Part shown: positions 509 to 10,489 of the stretch, piece by piece
How the letters are laid out: every line of letters begins with the position of its first letter
Numbering within the stretch: position 1 is the first letter of the stretch
Assembly (NCBI GenBank): GCA_029820875.1
Contig: JALGUK010000039.1
Coordinates: forward strand, 1-14,338
DNA: 14,338 nt
Source of the DNA: Candidatus Zipacnadia bacterium
GTDB taxonomy: Bacteria; Armatimonadota; UBA5377; JALGUK01
Reading direction: 5' to 3'
The notes under the pieces: model-generated
What the model was told of the DNA's origin: nothing
Databases searched by the model: none
Seen by the model: the letters and a program-made list of their open reading frames with translations, nothing else
Position numbers and translations under genes: made by a program

Positions 509-1406
509 TTGTATCGGTATCGGATGCAGCGCGCTCGATTATCTCGGGATAGTGTCTCGTTGGCCTGACGTGGACGAGAAGATGCCGATGGACGATTTGA
601 CCATTCAGGGTGGCGGGATGATAGCCACGGCGCTGGTCGCCATGGCGCGGCTCGGAGCGAGGGTCTCGTGGATGGGCAAGCAAGGGGATGACCCGTTCGG
701 TGTGCAAATCTTTCGCTTTCTGGATGATGAGGGGGTAGACCACTCGCACGCGGTGATTGAGCCTGGCGCGCGCTCCCACTTCGCCTTTTGCATTGTAGAC
801 AGCCACAGCGGCAAACGCACCATCTTCCACGCCCGCGGCACCGAGAGCACGTTACGCCCGGAGGAGCTGAACCGCAAGGAGATTGAGTCGGCGCGTTCAC
901 TGCTGATTGACTTCCGCTACCCGGAGGCATCCGAGGCGGCCGCCCAATGGGCACAGGAGGCGAATGTGCCGGTTGTCATCGACGCCGAAGGGGCAAGTGC
1001 CCCGGAGTACGCGGAAATATTGCGGCATTGCGATCACATCATCCCCTCGAAGGCGTTTGCCGAGGGGTTCACCGGAGTGTCCGACTGGGAAGAGGCTGCA
1101 AAGCAAATTTTCGACACATTCAAGCCGGCGACAGTCGTGATTACGCTTGGGGAGGATGGATGCGTGGCTTACGACGGTACGGAACTGATTCACCAGCCGA
1201 GCTTCCCGGTGGAGGTCGTGGACACCACAGGGGCGGGCGATGTCTTCCACGGGGCATATACGTTCGGCCTGCTGCAGGGCTGGTCGCTCAGGGAGACCAT
1301 CCGGTTTGCATCCGCCGTCGCGGCGCTTAAGTGCCGGAAGCTCGGGGGCCGCGCGGGTATTCCGACGCTCGAGGAGACAATCTCATTCCTGCAGAGGACA
1401 TCATAA
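498..1406 (+). CDS. PfkB-family carbohydrate kinase
   Basis: Cytoplasmic ATP-dependent sugar (or nucleoside) kinase of the ribokinase/PfkB fold, 302 residues, a normal family length. Seen: an N-terminal FDCIGIGCSALDYLGIV strand, a glycine-rich sugar-binding stretch QGGGMIATALVAMARLG (about 37-53), and the C-terminal PfkB signature DTTGAGDVFHGAY (242-254), in which Asp248 is the expected catalytic base and GAG forms the anion hole. The GTG start at 498 is preceded by AGAGGG seven to nine bases upstream and puts the first beta strand directly at the N-terminus. The gene converges with the sugar phosphate isomerase on the other strand, so the two are not co-transcribed even though both suggest sugar catabolism. 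The substrate cannot be told from sequence. A short ORF with its own ribosome binding site overlaps the start. Confidence 0.93.
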   Translation: MGFDCIGIGCSALDYLGIVSRWPDVDEKMPMDDLTIQGGGMIATALVAMARLGARVSWMGKQGDDPFGVQIFRFLDDEGVDHSHAVIEPGARSHFAFCIVDSHSGKRTIFHARGTESTLRPEELNRKEIESARSLLIDFRYPEASEAAAQWAQEANVPVVIDAEGASAPEYAEILRHCDHIIPSKAFAEGFTGVSDWEEAAKQIFDTFKPATVVITLGEDGCVAYDGTELIHQPSFPVEVVDTTGAGDVFHGAYTFGLLQGWSLRETIRFASAVAALKCRKLGGRAGIPTLEETISFLQRTS

Positions 1407-4463: not shown

Positions 4464-4492
4464 TTGCAACGAACGCCATTTTGTGGTATAAC
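4464..4492 (+). promoter_or_regulatory. Promoter of the cobalamin riboswitch transcript
   Basis: TTGCAA (4464-4469) and TATAAC (4487-4492) are separated by exactly 17 bases, and TGG directly before the -10 box makes an extended -10 element. Transcription would start near 4499, about 16 bases before the first paired base of the riboswitch. The agreement between promoter position and riboswitch start supports both calls. Confidence 0.7.
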
Positions 4493-4514
4493 ACTCCCAA
4501 ATTGAATAATGGAC

Positions 4515-4675
4515 GCGAGCGGAGGCGCGGCAAACAGCCGCTGGAAGACGGTCAAAAGCCGTCGCTGCCCCGCAACTGTAGCCGGGGACGAACCCCGCAG
4601 GAAGCCACTGGGCCCCAGGCCTGGGAAGGCGCGGGAAGTAGAAGGATCCGGAAGCCAGGAGACCCCTCCACTCGC
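4515..4675 (+). promoter_or_regulatory. Cobalamin riboswitch (AdoCbl/B12 element)
   Basis: RNA element that binds a cobalamin and controls expression in cis. Seen, in the order of the family consensus: a closing stem P1 of 11 pairs with one C-A mismatch (4515-4525 with 4665-4675); CTGGAAGACGGTCAAAAGCC (4541-4560), matching the GGAA..GGUnAAAnxCC block; GCTGCCCCGCAACTGTA (4564-4580), almost the invariant core; GCCACTG followed by GGGAAGGC; and finally the B12 box region CCGGAAGCCAGGAGACC (4648-4664). The element is complete and well formed. It is followed at 4703-4752 by two hairpins, the second a classical intrinsic terminator, and then by a prepilin gene, so an off switch acting by termination is the simplest reading. 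Ligand subtype (adenosyl- or aquocobalamin) is not determined. Confidence 0.95.
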
Positions 4676-4702
4676 ATATCTCATCGCCTCTTCGCGGGAA
4701 GG

Positions 4703-4762
4703 GGGGAATGTTTTTGTTCCCCGGGACGGTCGCTTCGCGTAGAGCGACCGTCTTTCTGTTTT
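4703..4762 (+). terminator. Riboswitch-associated intrinsic terminator, preceded by a second hairpin
   Basis: GACGGTCGCT (4725-4734) pairs perfectly with AGCGACCGTC (4743-4752) around an eight-base loop and is followed by TTTCTGTTTT (4753-4762), a textbook intrinsic terminator. Just before it, GGGGAA (4703-4708) pairs with TTCCCC (4717-4722). The terminator lies between the riboswitch and the prepilin gene, as expected for an expression platform. Its GACGGTC arm is also present inside the riboswitch (4547-4553). Confidence 0.85.
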
Positions 4763-4800
4763 AAATGTTCGGCCAGCCGTCACTCGCATACTCTGCTCCA

Positions 4801-4821
4801 AGAAGGAGGCCTTCTATCTTG
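4801..4821 (+). promoter_or_regulatory. Ribosome binding site within a small hairpin, deciding a TTG start
   Basis: AGAAGG (4801-4806) and CCTTCT (4810-4815) form a perfect six-pair stem around AGG, so the strong Shine-Dalgarno AGAAGGAGG (4801-4809) can be folded into a hairpin. CAAGA (4799-4803) is also complementary to TCTTG (4817-4821), which contains the TTG start. This may limit initiation on the prepilin mRNA. Confidence 0.45.
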
Positions 4822-5541
4822 TTCAAACAAACCGCTCCACGTCCAGGTTTCACGCTAATCGAACTGCTCGTCGTGATTGCGATAATCGCGATCTTGGCGG
4901 CTATATTGTTCCCGGTATTCGCAAAGGCCCGGGAAAAGGCCAGGCAGGCATCATGCCAGTCGAATCTGAAGCAAATCGGCCTCGCGGTGTTAATGTATAC
5001 CCAGGATTACGACGAATGTTTTCCACCGTCTTACTATTACGGCCCCGGGTGGAATCCCGAGTACGCCTGGGATTTCACGCTGGATTGGTCAACATGGCCG
5101 CCTACAGTCACGCTCGGACTCCTCGGGCCATACACTAAGAATGCGCAAATCAACGGTTGCCCAAGCTTCAGCGCAGAGTCCTGGGGACGCCCTTACACCG
5201 GTTACGCCTATAACACCACCTACATCGGGCATGGGCAATACGAGCCTATTGCCGCTCCGTCCAAGCTTGCCGCCGTGCAGCGGCCAAGCGAGACCGTTCT
5301 GTTATGTGACAGCGCATTCAGCCTCGGCGGCGCTATCTCTGCCAACAATTACCTCCGAGCACCGGGCGACCCATCTTACCCATGGATCGGGCCGAACGTG
5401 CATTTCCGGCATAACGGTGCCGCCGACGTCGCCTATTGCGACGGCCACGTCAAGGCAAGCACAGTGCAATACAATCAGAGTTCTTCAAAGCCCGAGTTGG
5501 GAGACCTTTCGGCAGACGACAGTGCGTATGACCTCCAGTAA
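4819..5541 (+). CDS. Type IV/II-like prepilin, DUF1559 / H-X9-DG family
   Basis: Secreted pseudopilin-like protein with a cleavable leader, 240 residues from the TTG at 4819. Seen: leader [10 protein letters not shown], then [33 protein letters not shown], the class III signal with prepilin peptidase cleavage after Gly and Glu at +5 of the mature protein. A conserved [26 protein letters not shown] follows. Near the C-terminus is [15 protein letters not shown], the H-X9-DG motif of TIGR04294. Start: the longer in-frame ATG at 4765 lies three bases after the terminator U-tract with no ribosome binding site and adds residues ahead of the leader. TTG 4819 has AGAAGGAGG nine bases upstream. It is the only gene directly behind the cobalamin riboswitch. 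The family is abundant in Armatimonadota and Planctomycetota; its function is mostly unknown. Confidence 0.93.
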
Positions 5542-5557
5542 TCACGTCGATTCTCTT

Positions 5558-5588
5558 GGGGCCGACGCTTATGTTACGCGTCGGCCTC
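5558..5588 (+). terminator. Strong hairpin downstream of the prepilin gene
   Basis: GGCCGACGC (5560-5568) pairs with GCGTCGGCC (5578-5586), extended by two outer pairs (one G-U) to 5558/5588, with a nine-base loop. It lies 16 bases after the prepilin stop. No run of T follows, so it may terminate weakly or protect the 3' end. It makes the prepilin a probable single-gene unit. Confidence 0.5.
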
Positions 5589-7896: not shown

Positions 7897-9645
7897 TCAT
7901 TTCCCCAGGGCGAAAAGCCGCGTTTCACCGAGCTTGAGGTCGAGCGCGACCGCATCGGTCCGTTCGGCGATAACAGTCCCGGACAATGCATCGCGCACGC
8001 GAGTCGGTTGCGGCAGGCGGATGAGTTTCGGCCCTGCATGGCAAGCGTGCACTGCCAGGAATCGGCCGTCGGTCGCCAGAACGTCGTCAGAATCAAGGTA
8101 AATATGCACACCCGCCTGTTGGGCGATGTTGCGCAGGAGTTGTGGGGGGCAGCGAAGAGAGCCGATGTAAACCGATGTCCATCCGTCCCGACGGACTGCA
8201 ATAGCGGGAGCGCCGCTGGGCTCAAAGCGAGCCAGAACATTTGTGCCGGCTTGCCCTTTGTCGGGTGAGAAAACGGGCACGGGTACCGGACCGGCGTCGA
8301 ACTCGCGCGGGACATTCGCTAACAGTTTGTCCTCGCCGGAGAGGACGACCTTTGCCTGGGGTTTCATACCCTTATCGAATGTAAAGCCTGTGACATCGGT
8401 CATGTTTCGGACCGAGGCATCGCGGTTGATGAACCCGGATGCGTAAAACCAGACAGCCGTAACTCCCGGCCGCCGCACGATATTCGAGATGGCAGCCCGT
8501 TCTTTGTCCGTCATTGCGAAGCAGTCGAGGAAGATATACAGCTTGGCCCTGGGAACGCGTCCAGCCGCCAGGTCGCTGAGAAGGTACTGTCCGAACGGAG
8601 CGCCCATTCGGTAAAGGGCCCAGCGCATCCTGTAGACAAGCGGATTGCTGACCTCGCGCGAACATGAGAGGTAAAAGCAGCTCTTCTCGTCCATGATTAC
8701 AGCGATTTCAGGTGCTTGAGGGCGTGGCGTGAGATTCGCGGCATAGTAGTTCGTCAGTTTCTGCAGGTTCTGCCAGATGTCGCCGGCGTCCAGCCAGCCC
8801 GTGCCCCCGAGGTCCATCCACCAGCAGGCCATGCGGCGTGTGAAAAACTGGGCGAAATTGCGCTGGTGGACCCAGAAGGTGTGTTGAGGCGTGTCGACCC
8901 GCCCGAAGCCGGCCGAGGGGGCGGTCAGATACGTGCGCGTGTCATCCTCGTTGAGCCAGAGTTTGCCGTGAGCCTGGACCGACTCGATCGGCGCCATGAA
9001 CGGTCCGGACCCGGCGAGCTCCCGGTCGAAATAGGAGATGGGCGAGCAAAGGACGTCCACGTCGGGACACTCAAGCAGCCGCTCAAGGGCAAGATGCCCG
9101 CTTGTTTGCGGGCCGTTTGGGATACCGGACATGTCGTACAGGTATCCGTAGAAGTAAAGTACCAGCTTACGGCCCCGTGTCTGCTCCTTGATAATCCGTG
9201 CGAACGTCTCCAGCGGCTCGACCATTGCAATTTGCGCGTACTCGAAGAAGTCTATCAGCTTCCGCTCTCGCTTCGGATCGCGAAATGCCCCCAGCCTCGT
9301 GCGTCTGCGTTCCCGCTCTGAGGGAACCACAATGTCATCGAATGAGCTGATAGGTTCATGCCAGGCTCTCCGCACCGCCTGGATGCGTCCGCCGTACTTA
9401 TTGTGCACCCACTTGCGGAACCCTAAGGACATCGGTTCCTCGTATCCGCTCATGGGGGTACTCCAGGACGCATTGTAGAACCACTCGCCGCTGTTTTGCC
9501 CACACGGATGGTAGCCGAGCATGTGAGCACCGTACTTCGCCTCGAGATGGCGAACGGTGGCGCGGAGAGCTTCTGCAGCGCCTCTTCGCCACTTCTCGGA
9601 CGCAATCGAGTACATGCCTCGGTTGCCGTTGTCATAAAGCATCAT
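7897..9645 (-). CDS. GH42-like glycosidase, C-terminal fragment of a frame-split gene
   Basis: The 582-residue remainder of the secreted glycosidase whose N-terminus is encoded at 9632-10489. Seen: MMLYDNGNRGMYSIASEKWRRGAAEALR then GYHPCGQNSGEWFYN, with Glu54 of this fragment the candidate acid/base; GKLWLNEDDTRTYL with Glu233 a candidate nucleophile; and from about 310 a Rossmann-like segment resembling the beta-galactosidase trimerisation domain (RAKLYIFLDCFAMTDKERAAI). These placements rest on memory of clan GH-A/GH42-like proteins and are moderate in confidence. The frame is open upstream to WWDASEDDMM, which continues the barrel without a start codon, so the ATG at 9645 is not the ancestral start. 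It does have GAGGA four bases upstream and overlaps the upstream frame by 14 bases, so separate translation is conceivable. Such a product would lack a signal peptide and the first part of the barrel. Confidence 0.75.
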   Translation of the reverse strand: MMLYDNGNRGMYSIASEKWRRGAAEALRATVRHLEAKYGAHMLGYHPCGQNSGEWFYNASWSTPMSGYEEPMSLGFRKWVHNKYGGRIQAVRRAWHEPISSFDDIVVPSERERRRTRLGAFRDPKRERKLIDFFEYAQIAMVEPLETFARIIKEQTRGRKLVLYFYGYLYDMSGIPNGPQTSGHLALERLLECPDVDVLCSPISYFDRELAGSGPFMAPIESVQAHGKLWLNEDDTRTYLTAPSAGFGRVDTPQHTFWVHQRNFAQFFTRRMACWWMDLGGTGWLDAGDIWQNLQKLTNYYAANLTPRPQAPEIAVIMDEKSCFYLSCSREVSNPLVYRMRWALYRMGAPFGQYLLSDLAAGRVPRAKLYIFLDCFAMTDKERAAISNIVRRPGVTAVWFYASGFINRDASVRNMTDVTGFTFDKGMKPQAKVVLSGEDKLLANVPREFDAGPVPVPVFSPDKGQAGTNVLARFEPSGAPAIAVRRDGWTSVYIGSLRCPPQLLRNIAQQAGVHIYLDSDDVLATDGRFLAVHACHAGPKLIRLPQPTRVRDALSGTVIAERTDAVALDLKLGETRLFALGK

Positions 9646-10489
9646 ATCGTCCTCGCTGGCGTCCCACCAGGATAATCAACCCATCGGGATCAGCCTCCAG
9701 GACGCGGTCTATCCAGTAGTCCGTTTGTGTGAAGTCCGGCTCTGTCCCCTCGCGGTAACGGCCCAGAGGCACGCCGAACGAATGGATGTGGACACCTGCT
9801 GCGGCGGCACGACGAACCTCACGGAGCAAAGCCGGCTCCCCGACGGCGCCGTATGTAGCCCAGTCACCTCCCTGCTCGACGACGAGCATCTCAACGTCAA
9901 CCGGGCGGTCGGCCTTCATCCATGCAGAGTACGTATATACTTGTCCCGCTGTGAGCTTCACATTGTCCTGGAAGATGTGGGCATGCCATATCTCGCTCCC
10001 GCCGCCCTGTATGTCCACCCTTAGGCTCTTGTCGCCGCTGGCGGCTGTGGTGTCATCAATGGAGGCCGTGGCCTTGGCGCCGAGGTCCTCCCGCGTAAAG
10101 AGAACCCAGTCACGGGCGAAGTCGTCGAGGGTGCCCTCGAAGTCGCCGCCGCGGGCGATGTTCTCGGCGTGACTTCCGGGCTTCCCCTTATAGAGCTTTA
10201 CCTCGTCTATCCAGAGCACCTTCGAATTGATTCCGAAGTGGATGTGAATGCCGGCGTGGTCAGTGTCCCGTGGGGCGACGAATTGCCCTTCGAACTTCTC
10301 CCATTGCGTGGTGACCTTCGCGCGGGCCGGCCTGATGGTGACGTACATTGCGACCGGCGGAACGGGCTTACCGTCCACAAACAGCATGGGGGTGCCGCGG
10401 ACGTTTCGCACCGCCGCCGTCAACGCCAGGGCGGCCCGTGGCCCCACGATGATTACCGCCGTAAGGGTGAGGAGCACAATCTGCTTCAA
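9632..10489 (-). CDS. Secreted GH42-like glycosidase, N-terminal fragment of a frame-split gene
   Basis: First 285 residues of a carbohydrate-active protein. Seen: a signal peptide (MKQIVLLTLTAVIIVGPRAALA), LFVDGKPVPPVAMYV, a jelly-roll tail WIDEVKLYKGK, then a CBM4/9-like module (NIARGGDFEGT... SGDKSLRVDI... YTYSAWMKADRPVDVEML, about 110-205). The beginning of a TIM barrel follows (AAAAGVHIHSFGVPLGRYREG... YWIDRVLEADPDGLII). The frame then leaves the family and stops 16 codons later (stop at 9632-9634). The correct continuation, WWDASEDDMMLYDNG, lies in another frame from 9669. Start: TTG 10489 has GGAGGG (10502-10497) seven bases upstream, within the end of the preceding gene, whose TGA lies three bases before the TTG. 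The gene is therefore coupled to the LOG-like gene. Confidence 0.75.
   Translation of the reverse strand: MKQIVLLTLTAVIIVGPRAALALTAAVRNVRGTPMLFVDGKPVPPVAMYVTIRPARAKVTTQWEKFEGQFVAPRDTDHAGIHIHFGINSKVLWIDEVKLYKGKPGSHAENIARGGDFEGTLDDFARDWVLFTREDLGAKATASIDDTTAASGDKSLRVDIQGGGSEIWHAHIFQDNVKLTAGQVYTYSAWMKADRPVDVEMLVVEQGGDWATYGAVGEPALLREVRRAAAAGVHIHSFGVPLGRYREGTEPDFTQTDYWIDRVLEADPDGLIILVGRQRGRYDAL

Follow-up and report, generated by a model that had tools for sequence, protein, structure and literature searches.

Why should a cobalamin (vitamin B12) riboswitch precede a gene that encodes a pilin-like protein? The question is raised by a 14,338-nucleotide stretch of Candidatus Zipacnadia bacterium (Armatimonadota; GenBank assembly GCA_029820875.1, contig JALGUK010000039.1), hereafter the window, in which the original prediction, made from the letters of the DNA, had read a promoter, a complete cobalamin riboswitch, an intrinsic terminator and a TTG-started H-X9-DG prepilin gene in succession. 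As judged from sequence comparison, the prepilin belongs regularly to the B12 regulon of three phyla, Armatimonadota, Verrucomicrobiota and Planctomycetota. B12 acquisition is its likeliest role because of the company that it keeps at its loci. The features of the locus, with the evidence for each in brackets, are as follows.

4464..4492, forward strand: candidate sigma-70-type promoter TTGCAA-17-TATAAC (read in the sequence)
4505..4684, forward strand: complete cobalamin riboswitch aptamer, RF00174 (covariance model score)
4723..4764, forward strand: intrinsic terminator, a 13-pair hairpin at 4723-4754 with a T-rich tail (terminator scan; recurrence in loci)
4805..4809, forward strand: Shine-Dalgarno sequence GGAGG, 9 bases 5' of the TTG at 4819 (sequence)
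4819..5541, forward strand: B12-linked H-X9-DG prepilin, 240 residues, TTG start (PF07963 and PF07596 above cut-off; AlphaFold2; structural matches)
5410..5445, forward strand: H-X9-DG motif, H198 to G209 (H198-X9-D208-G209; sequence)
5503..5538, forward strand: 12-residue C-terminal tail, a mark of many riboswitch-linked prepilins (tail pattern counts)
5560..5586, forward strand: 9-pair hairpin 3' of the prepilin gene, without a T run (sequence)

The Rfam covariance model RF00174 matches the aptamer over its whole length (model positions 1-189) with 94.4 bits against a curated cut-off of 31.5 (E = 7.3e-23), and the RNA from 4495 to 4765 folds with -117.8 kcal/mol (z = -2.26). Six terminator-like sites were found in 2.4 kb, compared with a mean of 2.6 in shuffled sequence, and the hairpin at 4723-4754 has the most pairs. 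The complete riboswitch and the terminator thus stand as originally proposed, as does the order aptamer, terminator, GGAGG and prepilin. The promoter is only plausible: its boxes are present (TTGCAA at 4464-4469 and TATAAC at 4487-4492, separated by a 17-base spacer, with TG 1 base 5' of the second box), but a stricter scan, which required T as the final base of the second hexamer, reported no site there. In 27 of 56 loci the gap between aptamer and prepilin contains a terminator-like hairpin (shuffling the gaps gives a mean of 0.9), and the hairpin of the window ranks second by score among the 27. Transcription attenuation therefore appears to be common at these prepilin loci. At several loci (L132, L135, L136, L139-L141, L158, L163 and L192) the hairpin and T tract finish a few bases from, or just inside, the first codons of the prepilin, and termination may occur there at the very beginning of the coding sequence.

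The protein is a predicted type IV pilin-like protein, with a prepilin leader, a long N-terminal helix and a beta domain. It scores 35.7 bits with N_methyl (PF07963, cut-off 21.2) and 55.4 bits with DUF1559 (PF07596, cut-off 23.3), which places it among the DUF1559 prepilins; at E 0.001 these were the only two families found, and the plug and barrel domains of BtuB/TonB-type receptors were not among them. Cleavage is predicted between G10 and F11, with a glutamate at mature position 5. The AlphaFold2 model has a mean predicted local distance difference test score (pLDDT) of 94.7. Type IV pilins head its structural matches, and the Foldseek candidates listed comprise pilins, one pseudopilin and nothing else; no cobalamin-binding fold is among them, which does not exclude such a fold. 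An in-frame ATG at 4765 offers a longer alternative start, and no ribosome-binding site was seen in the sequence before it. The original description of a TTG-started H-X9-DG prepilin is borne out by both domains, by GGAGG and by the motif, whose residues H198, D208 and G209 are invariant across the 57 rows of prepilin alignment A2; the H-X9-DG-CTERM model TIGR04294, by contrast, scores 15.9 bits, below its cut-off of 19, although the motif is literally present. The C-terminal tail pattern occurs in 46 of 77 riboswitch-linked rows and in 0 of 53 unlinked rows (two genes, L004/L162 and L005/L166, are entered twice among the linked rows, here and for the tree described below).

The pairing of riboswitch and prepilin recurs. 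With the window prepilin as query and one genome per species, 80 loci were retrieved (L001-L080), and L001-L068 entered the Rfam scan (L069-L080 were left out). In each of the ten best a riboswitch precedes the prepilin, directly in the Armatimonadota (L001-L006 and L010) and 1.7-2.6 kb upstream, with intervening genes for surface proteins, in Verrucomicrobia (L007) and Planctomycetota (L008 and L009). L011 shares the tail and has no RF00174 match in its 1.2 kb of upstream sequence. Among the more distant prepilins, L012-L068, RF00174 lies directly upstream in just 2 of 57 (L019 and L068), a control in which a few loci have little upstream DNA (L012, L020 and L064); at L065 the match is downstream of the prepilin, not upstream.

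Across the phylum, 246 of 291 Armatimonadota genomes have an RF00174 match at E 0.001 (223 over the cut-off); these 291 were also searched with a profile built from 22 linked prepilins (A1). Downstream of at least 85 of the 150 listed riboswitches, and in the same orientation, stands one of the 150 listed prepilins, a lower bound because further riboswitches and prepilins exist beyond the 150 listed of each. The prepilins in these pairs number 82, and for 80 of them the distance to the nearest listed riboswitch is 22-429 bases. A TonB plug gene goes with at least 15 of the 150 riboswitches (41 plug places compared). Ten genomes (about 44.5 Mb) contain 318 DUF1559 matches, 4-69 per genome, which amounts to about 7 per Mb or about 1% of genes, so that roughly one chance pairing would be expected among 150 riboswitches.

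Counted from the prepilins, 55 of the best 85 are linked to a listed riboswitch and three more to weaker ones (G001, G006 and G010), and 17 of 20 further prepilins are immediately preceded by a B12 riboswitch in the same orientation (10 RF00174, 6 AdoCbl-II and 1 AdoCbl). Altogether a B12 riboswitch is linked in 75 of the 78 best prepilins examined (seven of the best 85 lie outside this count), and one of the three without a match (L217) has merely 43 bases of upstream sequence. That this gene can be preceded by aptamers of different families, all from one Rfam clan, points to selection on B12 control, not to one stray inherited element. On a prepilin tree of 69 of the 77 linked rows (six short or odd rows and two copies left out) and 53 controls, from which L019 and L068 had been removed (RF00174 lies upstream of them, yet they were not found by the tail), the linked and unlinked labels require 2 changes, compared with a shuffled mean near 40. 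At L225 a thiamine pyrophosphate (TPP) riboswitch (565-676, reverse strand) is arranged back to back with the cobalamin riboswitch of the prepilin.

Samples of 246 Planctomycetota and 240 Verrucomicrobiota genomes extend the pairing beyond the phylum. In Planctomycetota, a threshold of 1e-50 gives 18 matching prepilins, which come from 17 genomes. No riboswitch was found within 1.5 kb of Planctomycetota prepilins, and RF00174 lies on the same strand 1.4-2.8 kb upstream for 11 of the 18, a count that includes the 9 of 16 further genomes in which a whole-genome search placed it at this distance. The seven prepilins without a riboswitch comprise two with about 1.1 kb of upstream contig (G405 and G369) and five whose matches end before the tail. 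In Verrucomicrobiota, 41 of the 240 genomes have a prepilin match. Of these, the 22 that rank next after G007 were examined, and in 19 of them RF00174 precedes the prepilin in the same orientation at a distance of 68-3251 bases; 13 of these matches exceed the cut-off and 6 fall short of it. Control of a prepilin by B12, the unexpected target in the original prediction, is thus supported by its recurrence in all three phyla, where more than a hundred related genomes show the pairing.

To see which genes accompany the prepilin, we turn to the putative operons, read downstream of 80 of the best 83 riboswitch matches, over at most 5.5 kb and with plus-strand genes as neighbours (the other three are covered elsewhere, one as L002 and two inside L145 and L156; L203, with 35 bases downstream, was counted as having none). 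After a stop-to-stop scan had added prepilins overlooked by the gene picker, a prepilin was found within 1.1 kb of the riboswitch in 50 of the 80 loci. Fifteen of the 50 also carry genes of the btuF, btuD or btuC types, 19 carry surface proteins and 16 neither (some at contig ends). The 30 loci without a prepilin divide into 9 with BtuB/TonB-type genes, 6 with BtuFCD types, 3 with surface proteins and 12 with none of these. Prepilin and BtuB/TonB occur together at 0 of the 80 loci. The possibility raised at the outset that a transporter always follows in relatives and was lost here is rejected by these counts. At L002, PF01497 (BtuF type), PF00005 and PF01032 genes follow the prepilin, and at L189 the riboswitch-linked receptor has both TonB domains (plug and barrel). 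The B12 assignment of the neighbours rests on the riboswitch plus sequence because NCBI equivalog models score below cut-off (BtuF, 121 against 234 bits; B12 receptor, 297 against 600).

The surface proteins are less familiar. For the 'YSPG' and the transcobalamin-like proteins, Pfam and NCBIfam name nothing beyond PEP-CTERM, and profile searches of PDB sequences returned nothing credible for either (mostly antibody light chains for YSPG). A co-encoded PEP-CTERM protein from another locus (P0128) is nevertheless predicted to have the transcobalamin beta-domain fold. A third surface protein has PDB matches to low-density lipoprotein (LDL) receptor-type beta-propellers (best E 9e-10); this beta-propeller-like PEP-CTERM protein is the third gene at L128, L136, L140, L141, L149 and L192, co-encoded with the prepilin, and could be a counterpart of BtuG, the surface B12 protein of Bacteroides. 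In the prepilin operons L169, L170, L174 and L187, an extra gene lies between btuF and btuD. The L170 copy begins MSKVIVSWSGGKDSCLAC, and the family, found at five loci (these four and L131), presumably resembles a diphthamide-synthase type ATP-pyrophosphatase. At L145 and L156, genes for ExbB, ExbD and TonB lie directly behind a cobalamin riboswitch, with a second riboswitch before the next gene, of BtuB type; the TonB energy system would thus be under B12 control in some Armatimonadota.

In the window itself, the prepilin unit may end at the hairpin at 5560-5586. A STAS-domain gene follows about 210 bases past the stop codon, and then a glutamate dehydrogenase-type gene; because of this hairpin and gap, the prepilin is probably transcribed alone and its unit monocistronic. 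Elsewhere in the window, two reverse-strand reading frames overlap by 14 bases (7897-9645 and 9632-10489) and may be a single gene split by a frameshift or an assembly error.

From the aptamer, terminator and prepilin, their recurring linkage, the neighbours and the predicted folds, we infer a route that we consider probable as a whole: a B12-repressed prepilin, assembled at the surface or in the envelope, would capture cobalamin and help to pass it to BtuFCD. With plentiful intracellular cobalamin as ligand, the terminator would form and the gene would be repressed; when B12 is short it would be transcribed. The prepilin would be cleaved and methylated, keeping its 50-residue N-terminal helix, and the type IV pilus or type II secretion machinery of the cell would build it into a surface filament or an envelope-spanning pseudopilus. 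Its C-terminal beta domain would capture cobalamin, alone or with the co-regulated transcobalamin-like PEP-CTERM proteins, and the vitamin would be helped through the outer membrane so as to reach BtuF and the BtuCD ATP-binding cassette (ABC) transporter. Of uptake and attachment, both of which had been suggested, uptake is favoured because of the BtuFCD and transcobalamin-like neighbours.

Cobalamin is too large for ordinary porins, and the prepilin possibly stands in for the usual outer-membrane B12 receptor. Among the 96 Armatimonadota genomes with a riboswitch-linked prepilin, the TonB plug domain was found in 35 and not in 61, compared with 93 with the domain among the other 195, a contrast that is suggestive only because many assemblies are probably incomplete and the difference is not large. 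A strict genome-wide exclusion of TonB receptors by the prepilin is unsupported, as G254 and G200 carry both kinds of locus. All 15 of the genomes tested for secretins and T2SSE-type ATPases have both (14 from the 96 and one, G201, with prepilin locus L188; retraction motors are not told apart within the ATPase matches), and machinery that could assemble a pilin is therefore present. A bolder proposal, which we advance tentatively and hold to be somewhat doubtful, is that in three phyla the B12-repressed pilin takes hold of cobalamin together with transcobalamin-like surface proteins and retracts through a secretin, in place of the TonB-BtuB route. We know of no earlier pilin-driven uptake system for a small-molecule nutrient.

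The main rival, unlikely in our judgement, is that the prepilin never polymerises and remains anchored in the inner membrane as a periplasmic protein that binds cobalamin and hands it to BtuFCD, B12 crossing the outer membrane by other means. This would suit the position of the prepilin immediately 5' of btuF in many operons, and the fact that it is usually the only prepilin gene at the loci read, where no pilus assembly gene was recognised beside it by eye and family (no dedicated search was made). However, the canonical GFTLIE prepilin N-terminus and the pilin fold are retained, and the periplasmic role is already filled by BtuF. It is less probable still that B12 hunger induces an adhesive or signalling pilus that attaches to B12 producers or particles without contact with B12: adhesion is a common role of pilins, and surface and beta-propeller-like proteins are co-encoded, but the partners, with BtuFCD-type genes and a transcobalamin-like fold, indicate B12 itself. 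That the prepilin is an incidental passenger, inserted between the riboswitch and the gene that it serves, or a chance pairing, is strongly disfavoured and highly improbable, since despite the abundance of DUF1559 genes and the probably monocistronic unit of the window, the phylum survey (at least 85 of the 150 listed riboswitches), the distant-prepilin control (2 of 57) and the tree labels reject it.

These loci add pilins to the list of B12 riboswitch targets and suggest a likely function for a branch within the very large DUF1559/H-X9-DG family. For cobalamin uptake by diderms without TonB receptors they offer a concrete, testable candidate, a riboswitch-controlled pilin that in three phyla is accompanied by BtuFCD-type genes and a transcobalamin-like protein. 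A metagenome riboswitch survey (PMC2211319) names as B12 targets btuB, btuC, fecB, cob genes and metE; 'pilin' is absent from the portions of its text consulted. The passages seen of two further papers make no link between prepilins and B12 riboswitches (PMC2667541, PMC8383342). In the open-access literature, which leaves most subscription papers and bioRxiv outside its scope, no paper among those listed visibly connects cobalamin riboswitches to prepilins or DUF1559, none pairs DUF1559 with cobalamin and none pairs Armatimonad with cobalamin and riboswitch.

The loci described here resemble four known systems in part. With the DUF1559/H-X9-DG prepilins of Planctomycetes and Armatimonadota they share the family domains and the motif, but they form a B12-linked subgroup, many of whose members have a tail of their own. 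The competence pilus and the type II secretion pseudopilus offer the same prepilin N-terminus, the pilin fold, and the secretin and T2SSE-type ATPase of the tested genomes, whereas here the regulator and neighbours indicate a vitamin instead of DNA or exoproteins, and the operons read contain no recognised assembly gene. SLBB transcobalamin-like proteins are secreted, have planctomycetes among their holders and were predicted to scavenge B12, in an account whose accessible text contains neither 'type IV pil' nor 'riboswitch' (PMC1796856); their fold is that predicted for the co-encoded surface protein here, which differs in its PEP-CTERM end and in being encoded with a prepilin. Finally, the B12-riboswitch btuB/BtuFCD operons of the TonB route in Gram-negatives have the same riboswitch family and, as in 15 of the 50 prepilin loci, BtuF/C/D-type partners, but here a pilin-like protein takes the place of BtuB with TonB/ExbBD.
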